In this document: piece after piece, positions 1 through 7,404 of the stretch
Layout: every line of letters starts with the position of its first letter
Numbering within the stretch: the stretch's first letter is position 1
Source of the DNA: Candidatus Zhuqueibacterota bacterium
GTDB lineage: Bacteria; SM23-31
DNA length: 7,404 nucleotides
Reading direction: 5' to 3'
NCBI GenBank assembly: GCA_022562855.1
Contig: JADFON010000080.1
Coordinates: 1 to 7,404, forward strand
Position numbers and translations under genes: made by a program
The notes under the pieces: generated by a model
What the model was told of the DNA's origin: nothing
Seen by the model: the letters and a program-made list of their open reading frames with translations, nothing else
Databases searched by the model: none

Positions 1-1
1 A

Positions 2-403
2 CCGATCACAAAAAATTATGACCCTGTTCCCCTCGAATATAGTGATGAACTTCTTTCAATGTGGAAAAACTTGGCGGATAATGTCCCATCACAGGCGAGA
101 AATTACGAATTGTTAAAAGAGAATGTAATGGCAGAATATGACAAGCGAAAATTCAAATCACCTGTCCAAAACATATTGGCAGACCGGAACCTCATATTCG
201 TTTTTACCTATAAATTATCCGATACCGGGCAAATATATACCGATCTTTTCGATAGTAGTACGTTGGAATATACCGGTACCGCATTATTTCCTTTTGTTCC
301 GAATCAAATACAGAATTCGTTTGCGTATAGATCAACAAAAGATGAAAATGAATTTGAGATGGTTGAAAAATACACGGTCAACCAAAAAATATATGGGAAT
401 TGA
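2..403 (+). CDS. C-terminal end of a 6-bladed beta-propeller-like protein (5' end outside the window)
   Basis: The reading frame is open from the left edge of the window, so the ATG at 59 is probably internal and about 134 C-terminal residues are present. The visible part has a polar helix-like stretch followed by two beta-blade-like repeats. One has the pattern ILADRNLIFVFTYK then a DLFDSSTLEYTG strand pair, and the last ends in MVEKYTVNQKIYG. This 'residue-D-R-N-hydrophobic-V, then D-x-F-D' layout, with a final 'Y-x-V/I-N' strand, is typical of the last blades of the 6-bladed beta-propeller (DUF4934-like) proteins that are common in Bacteroidota and relatives and usually secreted or lipid-anchored. 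Those proteins have no assigned enzymatic role that I know of. Any signal peptide lies outside the window. A generic hypothetical protein remains possible. The 192-base spacer that follows is AT-rich and shows no clear terminator hairpin. Confidence 0.55.
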   Translation, partial: PITKNYDPVPLEYSDELLSMWKNLADNVPSQARNYELLKENVMAEYDKRKFKSPVQNILADRNLIFVFTYKLSDTGQIYTDLFDSSTLEYTGTALFPFVPNQIQNSFAYRSTKDENEFEMVEKYTVNQKIYGN

Positions 404-595
404 AGTTCAAAAATATTTACGTTACCACCCCCAGTGGATTTTTTTCTTGTCTAACACGATACCTAAATAAACATTTGGTGCAAAATTACACCTGCTCATA
501 ATTGAATTTGAACTATATTGATTTGTAAACAATAGTATATGCAATTAGACACTTCTAAAAAAACAATTCAAGTAAAGCAAATATAAAGGAATATC

Positions 596-1129
596 ATGAA
601 CCCTGACAAATCAGATTCTACAGTAGCCCTGTTTGCGGAGAGGAGTTCTGAACGGGCAAAAGCAATTGAACTCACCGTAAACGGCAGAAACGTGCAGGTG
701 GAAGAAGGACGCCACCGCGTGCTATTGCAGGTATTGCGCGAAGAATTAAAATTGACAGGGACGAAATTCGGCTGCGGTGAAGGTCAATGCGGCGCATGCA
801 CAGTTTTGATAGATGGTAGAGCTGTCCGGTCCTGCATCACCCCGGTTGCCGCGGCACGCGGAAAAAAAGTGACCACGATCGAAGGACTTGCAAATAACGG
901 TATGCTCAGCCGTGTGCAACAGGCGTTTCTCGATGAGAACGCTGCGCAGTGCGGTTATTGTATTCCGGGAATGATCATGTCTGCCACCGCGTTACTTGAA
1001 AAACATCCAAACCCGGGCGCAGAACAGTTGCGCGAAGAGATGAACGGTAATGTCTGCCGGTGTAATAACTTCCTTAAAATCGAGGCGGCGATCTACAGGG
1101 CTGCCGGTCATGGAAGGGAGGGACGGTAA
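596..1129 (+). CDS. [2Fe-2S] subunit of a molybdenum hydroxylase, IorA/CoxS type
   Basis: This 177-residue protein is the electron-transfer subunit of a xanthine-oxidase-family enzyme. An N-terminal ferredoxin fold carries the plant-type cluster ligands C60, C65, C68 and C80 (CGEGQCGAC followed by a distant C). A C-terminal helical domain carries the second cluster with C119 and C122 (QCGYC) and C154 and C156 (NVCRC). All eight cysteines are intact. Relatives are usually about 150-160 residues; this one has an N-terminal extension of about 22 polar residues with no signal-peptide character. No later ATG lies before the cluster motifs, so the ATG at 596 is chosen. It is preceded by AAAGGA (585-590) at five bases. 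The stop is two bases before the next gene, which indicates translational coupling. Without its own signal it would be exported folded with the Tat-bearing large subunit, as inferred for IorAB-type enzymes. The substrate cannot be read from this subunit. Confidence 0.93.
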   Translation: MNPDKSDSTVALFAERSSERAKAIELTVNGRNVQVEEGRHRVLLQVLREELKLTGTKFGCGEGQCGACTVLIDGRAVRSCITPVAAARGKKVTTIEGLANNGMLSRVQQAFLDENAAQCGYCIPGMIMSATALLEKHPNPGAEQLREEMNGNVCRCNNFLKIEAAIYRAAGHGREGR

Positions 1130-1131
1130 TC

Positions 1132-3312
1132 ATGAAACGGATAAATGAATTTAATGAAGACCACGTAGTCGAACGGTACGAGCAGGACGAAGCGCCGCGG
1201 TATCAATTCGACCTGACGCGCAGGGGTTTTGTACAGATACTCGGCGCCGGGCTTGTTGTATCCATGTCCGGGAATAGTGCGTTAGCAAGTGGAGAACCTC
1301 TGTTAAGTCAGAACCGCAGCACGAAGATAAACGAACGTCTGCACATCGGCAGAGACGGAATTATTACTATTATGACAAGCAAAGTCGAGGTTGGACAGGG
1401 TTCACGGACGGAGATCACCCAGGCAGCCGCCGAAGAACTAAAAGTTTCCACCGATAAAATCAGACTAATAATGGCAGATACCGATCTTGTCCCGAATGAC
1501 GGCGGTACTCACGGAAGCCAGACGACACCGAGAACGATTCCCGCTGTCAGAAGCGCCTGCGCTGCCGCTGGAATACTGCTCATGGATATAGCCGCAAAGA
1601 ATTGGAACGCCGACCGGTCAAAACTGGTTTCCGGTAACGGTTTTATTTCCGAACCGTCTTCAAACCGGAGAATTTCATTCGGTGAACTGGCAGGCATGGA
1701 TGAAATAGCGAAGTCGTTTGACAATGCTCCGGGCAGTGACATTTCGGTGACGCCGGTCAATGAATGGAAAGTCATGGGTACTACGCCGTCAAGAGTGGAA
1801 GGGGAAAACATTGTTAATGGAACGTACCAGCACCCCGCAGATATTCTTCGTCCCGGTATGGTTTACGGTAAAGTGCTCAGACCTCCTGCTTATAATGCAA
1901 CTCTCAGGTCTGTCGATTTGGGTCCCGCCAGGGCTATGGATGGCGTTACAGCGGTTCACGATGGAAACTTTGTAGGAGTTACCGCCCCGACTTCACATCT
2001 TGCCGAACAGGCAGTAAAGGCAATCGAAAAAACCGCGCAGTGGGACACGGAACCTCACCCATCGAGTAAAGAATTATTCGGATATTTAAAAAACAACGTA
2101 TCGACCGGCGGCGGCAGGGGTTTTCGCAGAAGAGGCGGACAAAACACCGGGTCAATTGAGACCGGACTTAATGAATCGACAAAAACGGTCAAAGAATCGT
2201 ATGAAATAGCGTATATTCAGCACGTTCCGATGGAACCGAGAGCGGCTGTTGCCGAGTGGAATAACGGAAAAGTTACCGTATGGACAGGCACACAGCATCC
2301 GTTCGGCGTCAAGAATGAATTAGTAAGGGCGATGCGTGTTTCGGATGAAAATGTCCGCGTTATCGTTCCCGATACCGGAGGCGGTTTCGGTGGTAAACAC
2401 ACCGGCGAGGTCGCTATCGAGGCGGCGCGGCTTGCACGAGAGGCAGGAAAGCCCGTTTCACTCCGATGGTCGAGAGAAGAAGAATTTACATGGGCGTATT
2501 TCAGACCTGCCGGTCTTATTGAAACACGTTCCGGTATAGATGACAACGGCAATATAAAAGCATGGGAGTTTATAAATTACAACTCCGGGACTTCTGCTCT
2601 TGCCACCCCTTATGACATTCCAAATATTACAACACAATTCAGAGCATGCGATTCACCGCTTCGGGAGGGTTCATACCGGGGGCTTGCCGCCACGGCAAAC
2701 GTGTTCGCCCGTGAATCGTTGATGGACGAACTGGCGTCGGCTGCAGGCGTTAACCCGTTTGAATTTAGACTTAAACATCTCGACGACGGAAGGCTAAAAG
2801 ACGTACTCGTAAAAGCGGCAGAAGATTTTGACTGGGAAAACCGCAGCACATTAAAAAGAGAAAACCGGGGCGTCGGTCTTTCATGCGGCATCGAAAAAGG
2901 TTCATACACCGCCGCATGTGTTGAAGTCGAAGTCGACCGCAAAACCGGAACGATCCATGTACTTGACTTCCTTCAGACGTTCGAATGCGGGGCGATAATC
3001 AACCCGGATAATCTCAGCGCACAGGTGGAAGGTAGTATCGTTATGGGTCTTGGCGCGGCGCTTTGGGAAGAAATGCAGTTCGAAAACGGCAAAATTCTGA
3101 ATCCTACGCTGCGGCAGTACCGTGTACCGCGGTTTAAAGACGTTCCCCCAATCGAAGTCGTCCTTATCGACAGACCCGATCTGCCGTCCTCCGGAGCCGG
3201 TGAAACACCGATCATATCGGTGGCTCCTGCGATCGCCAATGCGGTCTTTGCGGCAACGGGAGTCAGGGTCCGGTCAATGCCGATAAAAAGCGATGACTTG
3301 AAGACCGGTTAG
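1132..3312 (+). CDS. Molybdopterin-binding catalytic subunit of a Tat-exported hydroxylase, isoquinoline 1-oxidoreductase (IorB) type
   Basis: This 726-residue protein is the catalytic partner of the upstream iron-sulfur subunit. Near the N-terminus a twin-arginine motif (TRRGFVQ, R30-R31) precedes a hydrophobic run ending near ALA (residues 50-52), indicating Tat export. The N-terminal part of the molybdenum hydroxylase fold is visible around residues 80-150 (KVEVGQGSRTEITQ and HGSQTT). Further motifs are QHVPMEP (363-369), the pterin-contact loop TGGGFGGK (415-422), EGSYRGLAATANVFARES (512-529) and GAGETP (688-693). E691 sits where the family's catalytic glutamate is found. An odd Gly/Arg-rich linker occupies about 325-337. 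The length fits IorB (about 730-780) rather than XdhB or CoxL. A purine-rich ribosome site (GGAAGGGAGGGA, 1112-1123) lies in the end of the previous gene. The gene ends in tandem TAG stops. No FAD subunit, cytochrome c or XdhC-like maturation gene is adjacent. Oxidation of an aldehyde or N-heterocycle is likely; the exact substrate is unknown. Confidence 0.92.
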   Translation: MKRINEFNEDHVVERYEQDEAPRYQFDLTRRGFVQILGAGLVVSMSGNSALASGEPLLSQNRSTKINERLHIGRDGIITIMTSKVEVGQGSRTEITQAAAEELKVSTDKIRLIMADTDLVPNDGGTHGSQTTPRTIPAVRSACAAAGILLMDIAAKNWNADRSKLVSGNGFISEPSSNRRISFGELAGMDEIAKSFDNAPGSDISVTPVNEWKVMGTTPSRVEGENIVNGTYQHPADILRPGMVYGKVLRPPAYNATLRSVDLGPARAMDGVTAVHDGNFVGVTAPTSHLAEQAVKAIEKTAQWDTEPHPSSKELFGYLKNNVSTGGGRGFRRRGGQNTGSIETGLNESTKTVKESYEIAYIQHVPMEPRAAVAEWNNGKVTVWTGTQHPFGVKNELVRAMRVSDENVRVIVPDTGGGFGGKHTGEVAIEAARLAREAGKPVSLRWSREEEFTWAYFRPAGLIETRSGIDDNGNIKAWEFINYNSGTSALATPYDIPNITTQFRACDSPLREGSYRGLAATANVFARESLMDELASAAGVNPFEFRLKHLDDGRLKDVLVKAAEDFDWENRSTLKRENRGVGLSCGIEKGSYTAACVEVEVDRKTGTIHVLDFLQTFECGAIINPDNLSAQVEGSIVMGLGAALWEEMQFENGKILNPTLRQYRVPRFKDVPPIEVVLIDRPDLPSSGAGETPIISVAPAIANAVFAATGVRVRSMPIKSDDLKTG

Positions 3313-3355
3313 TAGTCCTATTCTTAAGTGAAATTTTTAAATCAACATTATTTTT

Positions 3356-3387
3356 TTCGGTAGAGCAGGCATTTCTGCCTGCCCTAC
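3356..3387. repeat. Palindromic element with a TTCGGTAGAG left end
   Basis: A 12-bp stem with one mismatch (3360-3371 with 3376-3387, arms GTAGAGCAGGCA and TGCCTGCCCTAC) closes a TTTC loop. It lies 47 bases after the stop of the hydroxylase gene. A run of seven T sits before it on the plus strand rather than after it, so it is not a standard intrinsic terminator for either flanking gene. It shares the exact decamer TTCGGTAGAG with the structure at 5842, and its GGCAGGC core recurs in the terminator at 3487-3521. I read it as a dispersed REP-like palindrome that may also stabilise the 3' end of the mRNA. Confidence 0.55.
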
Positions 3388-3461
3388 TATTCTCTTGCTA
3401 AACTTTAAATCAGATAGCATTGAAGTCAATGAGGAGGTGATGCGAGTATTTCTATATAATC

Positions 3462-3480
3462 GAAGGTGAAGAACACCTTC
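3462..3480. other. Small perfect hairpin in the convergent spacer
   Basis: Arms GAAGGTG (3462-3468) and CACCTTC (3474-3480) pair perfectly around an AAGAA loop. It lies just left of the strong terminator and may add to transcript-end structure. No T-run follows it on the plus strand, so it would not end transcription alone. Confidence 0.35.
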
Positions 3481-3486
3481 AAGAGC

Positions 3487-3521
3487 AAAAAAAGGGCAGG
3501 CTCAATCAAGCCTGCCCTTTT
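3487..3521. terminator. Strong bidirectional intrinsic terminator between convergent genes
   Basis: A perfect 13-bp stem (3490-3502 with 3509-3521, arms AAAAGGGCAGGCT and AGCCTGCCCTTTT) closes the loop CAATCA. Read on the minus strand, the GC-rich part is followed by seven U (the A-run at 3487-3493), a classic terminator for the leftward gene that stops at 3550. Read on the plus strand, four U follow the GC-rich stem, enough for a weaker stop of the hydroxylase operon. Confidence 0.85.
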
Positions 3522-3549
3522 GATTTGAAGCCGGATTAAATATTAATAT

Positions 3550-4683
3550 CTACTTTATTATAATATAGTCGTAGTAATTCAGTTCTTCATAAGAATAGTA
3601 CTTTCCAGCGTCGAAATTCTTTACAAAGTTCTTCATATACTGCAGTCTCGTCGCCCGGTATCCGCTTGCCGACCAACGGATAAAAATCGATTTATCGGTC
3701 AGCGGAAGTTTCTTTATGTTGTTTGCCCATTGCGGAAAAACCCAGTTCCGGAACAAGTATTGTTCTACATTTGAAACATAATATGCCGATACGGTCAATT
3801 TGTGATCATTCAGATAGTCAGCGACCGCGGTCAACGCTTTCGGACCGGCGAAATCCCCGGTAAGCGGGATTATCTTGTTGTCTTCCTGCAGTTTCTTCAG
3901 GAACAGGTAATCGTCCCTGCTGTTGAATGCATTTTTTTGTTCCCCGCCAACGCTAAGCTGCATGAGTTGTCCCAACGTCGGGTGCCTGCGGCTCCACCCG
4001 CCGCTGTACGTAATGTTCAAGTTGTACATATAGAAGGTGTTCAGGACATTATTTATTTCCCTGAGATCACGGTCGTCTAATTCGAATTTGTATTTTTTGG
4101 TCAGGATGTCAACGATTTTTTGTTTATTTTCTTCATACATGTTCCGGTCCGATTCTGCACTGCGGAAATAAGCGACAATTTCATTTATATCCGATGATTT
4201 TCCAGGTCCGTCTTTGTCCAGGGGTTTTGCAAAAAGAAGCGATATCCACTCTGCCCGAGTGTCCGCAAGTTCAAATAGAATTTTATAAACAAGATGCTGC
4301 ATCTTATTCTGATGCCGGATATCGACAAAAAAGACAAGGTCGGGTTTGATGTTGGCGATATAGGTAAAGTTCTGGTTTGAAGCCACGCCGATATAGACGC
4401 CGCCTTCGATCTCCAACTTTTTCATCGGCTCGATTATGTCGAGATAGGTCCATTCGTTTGTCACCCAGTTATCGCTTCGAAAATATCCTCCGGATTCAGA
4501 CATGGAATTTACCATTTCAGAAAACTTAACCGGGGATATATCGGGTACAACCTGGGAAAAAGCGGTACTTCCAAACAAAAGTGCTAATCCGCAAAAAGTG
4601 AGGGTAAAATTCAATGAGAACCGACGAAACCCAGACCACTTTCCGGTTTTGCTGTACACCTTCACTTTTCCTATATCCGTCAT
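3550..4683 (-). CDS. Secreted protein of the LIC_10091-like family, methyltransferase-like motifs
   Basis: The 377-residue product begins with a basic n-region (KVKVYSKTGKWSGFRR), a hydrophobic stretch at about 24-40 and a likely signal peptidase I site after AFS (residues 41-43). There is no lipobox. The best conserved-looking block is residues 97-135: YIGVASNQNFTYIANIKP, then VFFVDIR, then HQN..QHLVYKILFE. From memory this pattern matches a hypothetical family annotated after Leptospira LIC_10091. The glycine-containing strand-loop followed by an acidic VDIR strand is compatible with a Rossmann or SAM-methyltransferase-like fold, and GDFAG (277-281) and SAYYVSNVEQYLF (299-311) fit the later part of such a domain. 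Enzymatic activity is not shown by the sequence. The start has a GGAG site eight bases upstream (minus strand, 4692-4695). The gene is convergent to the hydroxylase operon and divergent from the protease remnant, so it appears to be a single-gene unit. Confidence 0.75.
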   Translation of the reverse strand: MTDIGKVKVYSKTGKWSGFRRFSLNFTLTFCGLALLFGSTAFSQVVPDISPVKFSEMVNSMSESGGYFRSDNWVTNEWTYLDIIEPMKKLEIEGGVYIGVASNQNFTYIANIKPDLVFFVDIRHQNKMQHLVYKILFELADTRAEWISLLFAKPLDKDGPGKSSDINEIVAYFRSAESDRNMYEENKQKIVDILTKKYKFELDDRDLREINNVLNTFYMYNLNITYSGGWSRRHPTLGQLMQLSVGGEQKNAFNSRDDYLFLKKLQEDNKIIPLTGDFAGPKALTAVADYLNDHKLTVSAYYVSNVEQYLFRNWVFPQWANNIKKLPLTDKSIFIRWSASGYRATRLQYMKNFVKNFDAGKYYSYEELNYYDYIIIK

Positions 4684-5052
4684 ATTCTTATCTCCGTTTT
4701 AAGCTATGTATATAAAGAATTTCTTTTTAGCAGATACGGTTTCACTTATTATTTAGTTACAAAACGGGTAAATAATAATTCAATTTTTGTAGTTTTTCAC
4801 TTAATGAACCCGTCTCAATGTGATTGTTAAGAAAGCTCTTTGAGCTTGTACTTTGACTTCTATATATGTATATTATCAACCGTCAAACGTCCGAAAAATG
4901 TTACACTATTCGCTCTTAGCGTCCGTCCATACCCGGAATAATCAGCGTCCGATTTACAAAACAGGTATCCTGTCTGTTTCTTTGAAAATAAAATTATTGT
5001 TGCAAAATATCAACAATTTCTTTGAACACTATAGTTCGTAAATGAGGTCTGT
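4684..5052. other. Divergent intergenic region with promoter-like boxes
   Basis: This 369-base AT-rich spacer must hold the promoters of both flanking genes. On the plus strand a box-rich stretch at 4840-4876 contains TTGAGC (4840-4845), TTGACT (4853-4858), TATATA (4861-4866) and TATTAT (4871-4876). No pair has ideal spacing (TTGAGC to TATATA is 15 bases), so the true promoter is not resolved. A perfect small dyad, AAGCTC-TTT-GAGCTT (4833-4847), overlaps the first box and could be an operator. The 62-codon frame at 4853-5041 has no protein-like features and no ribosome site, and I do not call it a gene. GAGG at 5044-5047 is the ribosome site of the gene starting at 5053. Confidence 0.4.
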
Positions 5053-5673
5053 ATGAATATATTTATGGTTATTATCCTTTCGGCTTTGATAGCAGACTAT
5101 GTAATAAAAATAACGACTGAACTGCTCAACCTGAAGGCTCTCGATGAAAAACTTCCGTCAGAATTTGAGGATGTTTATGACGCGGAGCGGTACAAAAAAT
5201 CCCAGGAATACGCCCGGGTCAACACGCGGTTCGGCTTTGTAACATCGACCTGGGGTCTTGCGGTAGTTCTCGTTTTCTGGTTTGCAGGCGGATTTAACTG
5301 GCTTGACCAGGTTGTCCGGGGCTTGGTGAGCAATTCAATCTGGGCAGGATTACTGTTTGCAGGAATGCTTGTGATAGCAAAAACAATAATTTCAATGCCG
5401 TTCAAGATATACAGGACGTTTGTTATCGAGGAGAGGTTTGGTTTTAACAAGACTACCCCCGCAACTTTTATAATGGATTTTATTAAAGGTCTCTTTCTCG
5501 GCGCGGTTATCGGGGGTATCCTGTTCGCCGGAGTTCTCTTGTTTTTCGAGTATACCGGATCGATGGCGTGGCTTTATTGCTGGGTTGCGACAACGGTTTT
5601 TACAATATTCAAACATTCTCGACAAGTCGGGGTAAACTGTTTTTCAGTGCGACATCCGTCTTTGCTCAAGTAA
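5053..5673 (+). pseudogene. Truncated M48-family (Ste24/CaaX protease-like) membrane peptidase, N-terminal domain only
   Basis: Residues 1-186 look like the N-terminal membrane domain of Ste24-type M48 peptidases. There is a first membrane helix (1-20), a charged segment with AERYKKSQEYARVNTRFG (45-61), further helices at about 62-80, 95-115, 143-165 and 168-186, and the signature FVIEERFGFNKTTPATFIMDFIKG (123-146). Family members are about 400-420 residues and carry zinc ligands HExxH plus a downstream glutamate in the second half. Here the frame leaves the family after VFTIF (base 5610), where relatives continue with a segment like MQFIAPTWI. It then adds a 20-residue unrelated tail and stops. 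No HExxH is present in any frame downstream, so the product cannot be an active protease. GAGG at five bases supports the start. Loss may be a deletion, rearrangement or assembly join at 5610. A functional short membrane protein is less likely. Confidence 0.8.
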
Positions 5674-5765
5674 TGAGCTTCGCCGGACAGGTTTGTGTAA
5701 TTACTATGTTTTGTTTAAAAAATTAAGTTGCTATTTTAGGTTAGTAGTATTAAGAAACAATTTTA

Positions 5766-5785
5766 TCCGCCAAAAAGAAGGCGGA
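5766..5785. repeat. Short hairpin TCCGCC-N8-GGCGGA
   Basis: Perfect 6-bp arms (5766-5771 and 5780-5785) flank an A-rich eight-base loop. It lacks a following T-run on the plus strand. It could be a small dispersed palindrome or a weak mRNA 3'-end structure for whatever gene originally stood upstream. Confidence 0.5.
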
Positions 5786-5841
5786 CAAGTAAATAAAAAG
5801 TAGTTGTAACTATTCGGTATTTCTATGATGGGTCGTCAGAC

Positions 5842-5910
5842 TTCGGTAGAGTCGTCCGGACTCTAACGAGCTGCCGGTTAGCTGCAACATCGTTAGGCTG
5901 CCTGGACGGT
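5842..5910. repeat. Compound inverted repeat with attC-like core boxes
   Basis: The stretch starts with TTCGGTAGAG, the same decamer as at 3356. A perfect 7-bp hairpin TAGAGTC-GTCCG-GACTCTA spans 5847-5865. An alternative larger fold pairs CTAACGA (5863-5869) with TCGTTAG (5890-5896), and outside it 5851-5859 with 5902-5910 using some G-U pairs. The two folds exclude each other. The pair CTCTAAC (5861-5867) and GTTAGGC (5893-5899) resembles integron attC outer boxes (RYYYAAC and GTTRRRY), the second exactly and the first with one mismatch. The 39-base span is shorter than normal attC sites (about 57 bases or more) and no integrase is present, so a REP-like palindrome is the safer reading. Confidence 0.5.
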
Positions 5911-6085
5911 CGTACATTTTGTCAAGAATAGAAAACGTTCTTTGGTAACTACGAATCTGTCTGTACTCATCTTCTATTTTATTTGGTTCGTATGATGACT
6001 ATGCCAATTCATCGCGTCTCGGCTGTTCATTGAAATCCGGGGAACTACCGGCAATTCTCCAAAAAAAGAAAAAAGTGAGGAAGAA

Positions 6086-6478
6086 ATGAAGACGTGTTGT
6101 TTTTTAACTTTGCTTGTGATTTTGAATACAATCTTGGTCGCTCAGCGACTGGTGGGGCGCGAAATCATCATCAACCCGATGTTTACTGAGCTGCCTTCGG
6201 ACCAACGTGATTCATTGCGTTGGATGTCTTCCGTATCCGCGTGGGGTGGTTTTGGATATTACGCTATGGGTGATCGAGAGCACGCATGGTACCAGAAACT
6301 TGGCGTCTTGATCGAATTATTCAGGAATGGTGAAGAGTCCAATTTCTTTTTCGAGAGTAATATTGAGTTTATCGCCAGGACCGATGCGGTACTCCTGCAG
6401 GGTTTGGCTGTCCGCGGCGGAAGGCGCCATGAGGACAACAAACAACAGGAGGGTGGCCAGTCCAGATCGTATAAATAA
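6086..6478 (+). pseudogene. N-terminal fragment of a secreted/outer-membrane protein fused to antisense sequence
   Basis: GAGG at five bases supports the ATG at 6086. Residues 1-19 form a signal peptide (MKTCC then a leucine-rich core, ending near LVA). Residues 20-97 look like genuine coding sequence, with IIINPMFTELPSDQRDSLRWMSSVSAWGGFGYYAMGD and WYQKLGVLIELFR. They suggest a periplasmic or outer-membrane protein of the kind found in Ignavibacteria-like genomes, for which I cannot name a function. From about residue 98 (base 6377) the frame reads the reverse complement of an exopolysaccharide export gene, giving a low-complexity polar tail (GGRRHEDNKQQEGGQSRSYK) with no protein-like character. 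The annotated stop at 6478 is therefore an accident of the join. The full protein was probably much longer; a real 130-residue protein is unlikely. Confidence 0.65.
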
Positions 6479-6499
6479 GCGCACAGCTTTATCCCGCAT
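6317..6499 (-). pseudogene. Truncated Wza-like polysaccharide export protein, N-terminus only
   Basis: Reading leftwards from the ATG at 6499 there is a signal peptide (MRDKAVRLFIRSG, then a hydrophobic core LATLLLFVVLMAP and a site near SAADSQ). It is followed by the start of the polysaccharide export domain, LQEYRIGPGDKLNIT. The RIGPGDKL motif is the hallmark of Wza/GumB/KpsD-type outer-membrane export lipoproteins and their relatives, which form the channel for capsule or exopolysaccharide. After base 6356 the frame leaves the family within a residue or two (EKEIGLFTIPE) and stops at 6317, so more than 100 residues are missing. An upstream GTG at 6535 would add 12 residues ahead of the signal peptide. 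The ATG at 6499 gives a better signal sequence and has AGTAGGG three bases upstream. The gene lies 191 bases downstream of the beta-barrel gene on the same strand, the usual pairing in alphaproteobacterial polysaccharide loci. Confidence 0.8.
6353..6376. other. Breakpoint joining two head-to-head gene fragments
   Basis: The plus-strand gene keeps family-like sequence up to IEFIA (base 6376). The minus-strand export gene keeps its family motif down to NIT (base 6356). The roughly 20 bases between can be read plausibly as both, which fits a join at a short shared sequence. Left of it the DNA is moderate in G+C and FCB-like; to the right G+C rises. Hand counts of single 60-base blocks gave about 45% at 3601-3660 and about 57% at 6901-6960. 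Confidence 0.7.
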
Positions 6500-6587
6500 C
6501 GACCCTACTCGCTCAATAAAATACAAAAGACGCACAAATTACAGACCGCCTAATATTCCATGTTACGGTATGTACTGCATATCAGAT

Positions 6588-6627
6588 CGTCAATATAGGG
6601 TATTCATTCGGCAACATAGGGTATGTT
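6588..6627 (-). promoter_or_regulatory. Phased repeats and dyad upstream of a -35-like box, for the export gene
   Basis: ATAGGGTAT occurs twice (6595-6603 and 6616-6624), starting 21 bases apart, two helical turns. The right copy is the centre of a perfect dyad AACATA-GGG-TATGTT (6613-6627). On the minus strand the left copy abuts TTGACG (6593 to 6588), a good -35 box. At 17-base spacing the -10 position is only TACCGT (6570-6565), which is poor and fits an activator-dependent promoter. It lies about 90-130 bases upstream of the ATG at 6499. Confidence 0.4.
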
Positions 6628-6690
6628 AACGGTCGGAATTTCATTGTTCCTGGGGGCGTATGATCTTCATCTAATACTCACATAACCCGT

Positions 6691-7404
6691 TTAAAACCTG
6701 GCGGTCAAAGAAAAATTGAGGACGTTGTTAACAAACGATCCGCCGGGCTGGTCGGCGAAACGTTCTTCATATGTATATTTTGCGTTGGCGATGAAATAGC
6801 GCCCGATGAAATATTTTGCGCCGAGCTCGAATTTCACGAGCTCGTCCGAACGGCTGATACCGTCGAAAGATTCGAGGTTGAGTTTGGCGCCGGCGCTCAA
6901 GAGGAGTTCCTCGAGCAAGCCGTAGTCGGCCTTCAACTCGAACGTCGATGTAAAGGCCGACGCCGCGCCGGGAAGTGTCGTTTCCCTGACGCTCCGGCGT
7001 ATATTTCCGGTGATGGTCATCAGGTCTGTCGGGTTCCAAATCAGGCTGCCCTTGAACGAGAAACCCTGGGTCGGGCCGAGTTTTGCGCGGCCGAGCGGCT
7101 GATCGTCGAAAGTTTGTTTTATGTAGCCGACACCGAGCTCGACGAAGGTCACGGCCGAGATGTCCAGGGTGCCGCCAAGCAGGACTTCGACGCCCCGGGA
7201 GCTGCGTTTGAAGCCGGAGTCGTCGATCGAGGTATCGAATTCGCGAAAATCATAGGTCGTCTCGACGAAGGCCGTCGAACCCGGCACCAATTCATAGCCG
7301 ACACGGGCGGTGGTCGTGATTTCTATGACGTCGCGGTCATCGTTGTTCGTGGTTCCGGCGTCATCGAAATCGATGATGTCGGCTTTGATATCGAGCTTCA
7401 CAAG
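6691..7404 (-). CDS. C-terminal part of an outer-membrane beta-barrel protein of exopolysaccharide loci (BBP2-like)
   Basis: The frame is open through the right edge; the GTG near 7401 is internal. So 237 C-terminal residues of a protein usually about 400 or more residues long are present. The sequence is a series of alternating amphipathic strands with acidic turns, for example ATVGYELVPGSTAFVETTYDFREFD-like pairs, the block RSSRGVEVLLGGTLDIS, FVELGVGYIKQTFDD, FSFKGSLIWNPTDLMTITGNIRRSVRETTLPGA, LLSAGAKLNLESFDGISRSDE and YFIANAKYTYEERF. It ends in FSLTARF. The terminal phenylalanine is the usual recognition signal for barrel assembly. The GSLIWNPTDLMT..RSVRETT segment is characteristic of the beta-barrel porin 2 family, which in alphaproteobacteria sits beside Wza-like export genes, as here. 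Its role is probably passage or assembly of exopolysaccharide at the outer membrane; this is inferred from context. Confidence 0.85.
   Translation of the reverse strand, partial: LVKLDIKADIIDFDDAGTTNNDDRDVIEITTTARVGYELVPGSTAFVETTYDFREFDTSIDDSGFKRSSRGVEVLLGGTLDISAVTFVELGVGYIKQTFDDQPLGRAKLGPTQGFSFKGSLIWNPTDLMTITGNIRRSVRETTLPGAASAFTSTFELKADYGLLEELLLSAGAKLNLESFDGISRSDELVKFELGAKYFIGRYFIANAKYTYEERFADQPGGSFVNNVLNFSLTARF

Follow-up and report, generated by a model that had tools for sequence, protein, structure and literature searches.

A foreign tail on a Candidatus Zhuqueibacterota contig: a probable chimera joined through a short sequence shared by two cut genes

Inverted joins via a few common bases are the hallmark of phi29 MDA: its chimeras are inverted in more than 85% of cases and primed at 2-21 complementary bases in more than 70% (Lasken and Stockwell 2007, PMC1855051), with a preference for overlaps of 12-13 bases (PMC5372508). 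The window analysed here is a stretch of 7,404 nucleotides (1-7404) that makes up an entire contig (C86); the draft genome to which it belongs comprises 491 contigs totalling 2.51 Mb and has an estimated completeness of 79.6%. Like the chimeras described by Lasken and Stockwell (PMC1855051), it appears to contain an inverted join made via a short stretch of complementary bases; unlike those, which mostly arise within one molecule, its blocks look like different organisms. It also resembles the interspecies chimeric contigs of draft metagenome assemblies, in which a host-like block carries a foreign tail at the contig end, genes are cut and several contigs are affected. With respect to gene content, the right-hand block (6378-7404) is similar to the alphaproteobacterial loci that combine a BBP2_2/EpsL porin with a Poly_export gene, since in it the C-terminus of a BBP2_2 protein precedes the N-terminus of a Poly_export protein. 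The same gene types lie close together in plasmids of Thalassobaculum and Azospirillum, although identity to these is only ~25-34% and gene order and orientation differ.

An earlier reading, made from the sequence alone, had preferred to explain the junction by inverted joining at a short sequence common to both sides, of the kind left by amplification chimeras or misassembly, while allowing for a true rearrangement. Our analysis supports this reading, because the cut genes have intact homologues elsewhere, the blocks differ in composition and taxonomic affinity, a further break lies at 5610 and foreign tails recur at the ends of other contigs. We therefore regard the contig as a chimera whose foreign tail was joined via a short shared sequence, and consider it highly probable that this is an artefact and no biological rearrangement; very probably, the window is not one genome. 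According to this model, the 1.8-kb tail (5611-7404) would derive from at least one other microbe, with 6378-7404 representing a fragment of an exopolysaccharide locus of an Alphaproteobacterium-like organism and 6086-6377 a gene most closely related to one in a Bacteroidales MAG. Via the sequence shared at 6371-6377, the tail would have been attached in the wrong place and orientation; a second joining point would lie at 5610, and the genes would be cut because each block ends at a join, not through biological truncation.

Two joins and the genes cut at them

The coordinates of all features are collected in Table 1. The block 1-5610 is the organism's own DNA and is usable as host sequence. 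Its tetranucleotide composition is mostly typical of the assembly, with a moderately G+C-rich part at 1001-3000; there, the molybdopterin-enzyme genes have a G+C content of 0.50-0.51 (~98th-99th percentile of the genome), and their tetranucleotides are less divergent.

Table 1. Features of the window and of other contig ends with outlier composition
Feature	Coordinates	Strand	Evidence and remarks
Host block	1..5610		2Fe-2S and molybdopterin-binding subunits (aldehyde/xanthine-dehydrogenase-type enzyme), DUF7790 protein, N-half of M48 protease; Pfam
CAAX-type M48 peptidase, truncated, N-terminal 186 residues only	5053..5610	+	Homologues continue; homology of the window ends at residue 185-186
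First join	5608..5614		M48 homology stops at 5610 after 186 of ~410 residues
Apparently non-coding stretch	5611..6085		Between first join and plus-strand gene; without detectable relatives
Secreted protein of a rare uncharacterised family, N-terminal third	6086..6377	+	Intact length elsewhere 305-329 aa
Second join, sequence common to both parents	6371..6377		TGGCGAT on minus strand; 7 bases or more, with a possible leftward extension
Poly_export (Wza-like) protein, N-terminus	6378..6535	-	Poly_export E=0.0038; signal-peptide-like N-terminus; downstream of BBP2 porin
BBP2_2/EpsL-like outer-membrane beta-barrel of an exopolysaccharide locus, C-terminal 237 aa	6691..7404	-	BBP2_2 E=1.6e-50
Tail of L094 (contig C59)	1-1660		Archaeal S28e, NDK (nucleoside diphosphate kinase) and adenylate kinase; GC 0.28; abuts native sodium:alanine symporter
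Tail of L074	1-1100		COX15; only NCBIfam match is an alphaproteobacterial model, below that model's cut-off
Tail of L073	1-750		CBS-domain protein, GC3 0.87; adjoins response regulator without its first 26 positions
Tail of L146 (contig C120), contig end	4969-6393		SDR dehydrogenase fused in frame to DprA without its N-terminus
Tails of L080, L127 and L143	5690-7162; end; 1-1111		Outlier composition; genes unlike the rest of the contig

At the first join, the M48 fragment shares 66% and 59% identity with the uncut proteases of two genomes of the same family, G001 (410 aa) and G002 (414 aa), and a homologue in G050 likewise continues past the point at which the window is cut. After 5610, the residues that follow are unrelated to the M48 homologues. 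This break had gone unmentioned in the earlier reading and is of the same kind as that at 6371-6377.

On the other side of the tail, the plus-strand frame (6086-6478, 130 aa) shows 85% amino acid and 91% DNA identity to an intact 305-aa protein of the Bacteroidales MAG L004. The DNA match is confined to 6085-6377 of the window, and identity vanishes past 6377. A second intact homologue, of 329 aa from an Ignavibacterium MAG (L005), is 42% identical over the same part of the frame. The minus-strand frame (6535-6317) matches positions 2-20 of the 77 positions of the Poly_export profile, and then the match ends; its score against PF02563 is 17.8 bits, compared with a Pfam cut-off of 28, which marks it as a fragment of the domain and is consistent with truncation. 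The gene more likely starts at the ATG at 6499 than at 6535.

The two N-termini are thus cut at one point, as had been claimed, since the L004 homology and the Poly_export match both stop at ~6371-6377. "Head to head", the wording then used, has to be corrected: the genes converge, and it is their truncated 3' sides that meet. The word TGGCGAT serves both parents, because the L004 homology reaches 6377 while GGC GAT on the minus strand codes for the conserved Gly-Asp pair in the GPGD motif of Wza-like proteins. We give the overlap as a lower bound of at least 7 bases, as its left limit would take a close relative of the Wza-like gene to define. Moreover, the last residues of the minus frame, GDKLNITLEKE, are the antisense of the plus-strand gene, and the antisense frame of L004 reads GDKLNITLERE.

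Each frame is open and begins with a start codon, as would be the case if there were no breakpoint, with the 130-residue plus frame a complete short protein and the minus frame open by chance. Such a reading seems extremely improbable. Full-length homologues of 130 residues had been named as evidence against a breakpoint, but the homologues found have 305-329 aa, with DNA identity falling from 91% to none where the match ends at 6377, and the minus frame carries a Poly_export motif downstream of a porin, as is typical of such loci. Of the intact homologues proposed as a check on each half, those of the plus-strand gene were found; on the Wza-like side, the truncation is judged from the Poly_export profile.

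The continuations of the M48 gene, of the plus-strand gene and of the Wza-like gene were not found elsewhere in the organism's own assembly among contigs of at least 3 kb, which favours the chimera; the missing halves could lie in contigs shorter than this, a point that counts against it.

Composition and relatives of the tail

The G+C content of the right-hand block (6377-7404) is 0.53, compared with a mean of 0.42 in a sample of the genome. The value for 5611-6376 is 0.42, which confirms the earlier statement that the DNA flanking the second join differs in G+C. The porin gene has a GC3 of 0.72 (99th percentile of the organism's own ORFs, median 0.44), and the tetranucleotide divergence of the block reaches the ~99th percentile among windows of 42 own contigs, although composition measured over 1 kb is weak evidence of taxonomic origin.

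The porin had no match at 1e-6 in five genomes of the same class. Among 386 genomes, it gave a single match (22%), and the parent locus of the right-hand block was otherwise not found there, nor was it found in viral contigs. All ten plasmid homologues of the porin are alphaproteobacterial, and two of those plasmids have a polysaccharide-export gene nearby. From this we infer the alphaproteobacterial affinity of the block.

In contrast, 5611-6376 is no compositional outlier in its own assembly, which speaks against a chimera for both the stretch 5611-6085 and the plus-strand fragment. Its foreign status therefore rests on the relationship to L004 and the break at 5610. The stretch 5611-6085 itself had no match in the organism's own genome, the L004 and L005 genomes, phages or Rfam, showed only chance matches of 33 bases to plasmids, and matched neither Pfam nor NCBIfam in four translated frames.

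Outlier composition at contig ends across the assembly

We compared 1-kb windows at the ends and in the interiors of 102 other contigs of at least 3 kb (763 kb), taking a divergence above 0.17 as outlying. Of the 204 contig ends, 8 held an outlier window, against none of the 512 interior places, which were taken without overlap (Fisher p = 4e-5, a value somewhat flattered by the threshold having been picked after a first look at 42 of the 102 contigs). The contrast between ends and interiors persists at thresholds of 0.15 and 0.20, and an overlapping scan added one more stretch of this kind, close to an end of L150 (751-1750). The end of the window, with a divergence of 0.207, belongs to the same class.

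Where the genes of these tails could be assigned to families, they are out of place and cut into native ones. The symporter that abuts the archaeal genes of L094 lacks its first 131 profile positions, and the SDR-DprA fusion of L146 coincides with a composition break at the contig end; it looks like a novel domain fusion but is probably a chimera instead. Not every outlier end need be foreign; some, for example the phage-like L075, could be native. Overall, the data are best explained if the draft holds several contigs with foreign tails of ~0.7-1.8 kb, the window among them.

These findings bear on whether the window records a true microhomology-mediated rearrangement or horizontal acquisition in the host, in which a foreign exopolysaccharide locus was inverted against the plus-strand gene and both genes were broken into pseudogenes. 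Real events of this type also leave gene fragments and short homology at the junction, the family of the plus-strand gene is patchily distributed (present in 1 of the 296 genomes around that of L004) and may move between genomes, and an exopolysaccharide locus could in principle be acquired horizontally in single copy. However, two independent breaks would have to lie within 770 bases, and the foreign block extends to the very end of the contig. Furthermore, a genuine island would lead one to expect similar outlier stretches inside contigs too, whereas outlier blocks were found at contig ends only in this assembly. Archaeal core genes, as carried by tails of other contigs, are not a credible set of acquisitions for a bacterial contig. 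A rearrangement in the host is therefore very unlikely.

An origin of both blocks from nearby loci of one cell's genome, joined in inverted orientation by phi29 MDA, would account for an inverted join with a short sequence in common (7 bases or more). We consider it rather unlikely, since MDA chimeras are mainly intramolecular, while the tails in this assembly are unlike the main genome, and unlike one another, in both composition and apparent taxonomy, and since the assembly bears no indication of a single-cell origin. For the chimera between organisms that we favour, we infer that the blocks were joined during amplification, library preparation or assembly. The chimera may have arisen by ligation or PCR, or the assembler may have merged sequences over a short common word where coverage was low; such an origin is no less likely than phi29 amplification.

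Consequently, the exopolysaccharide genes, the plus-strand fragment and anything else in 5611-7404 should not be attributed to the organism. Archaeal or proteobacterial genes at other contig ends could be mistaken for the products of horizontal transfer or for newly fused genes, as in the case of SDR-DprA. Comparing composition at contig ends with that of contig interiors is a simple test and could be used to screen other drafts.

Repeats and rejected candidate elements

A mobile element at 5611 was considered and rejected, as the sequence is not repeated elsewhere in the genome and gave no match to a protein family, a phage or a viral contig. A structured RNA within 5500-6400 was likewise rejected: Rfam gave no match, and DNA folding of 5825-5925 was no better than that of shuffled sequences.

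Upstream of the Wza-like gene, two 17-base direct repeats, TCGTCAATATAGGGTAT at 6587-6603 and TCGGCAACATAGGGTAT at 6608-6624, lie 21 bases apart. They are possibly regulator-binding sites of the foreign exopolysaccharide locus.

In L004, identical 17-base repeats (GCTTAATAATATGTTAG, at 4448-4464 and 5782-5798) flank the intact homologue of the plus-strand gene in a cassette-like manner. These repeats, together with homology to the window that starts at the start codon, raised the idea of an integron cassette, yet neither the window nor L004 contains a canonical attC pair (RYYYAAC...GTTRRRY), and the idea was rejected. The intact homologue in L004 is richer in G+C than its neighbours, and the window carries at 5892-5901 a 10-mer, GTTAGGCTGC, that is the same as in the L004 repeat.
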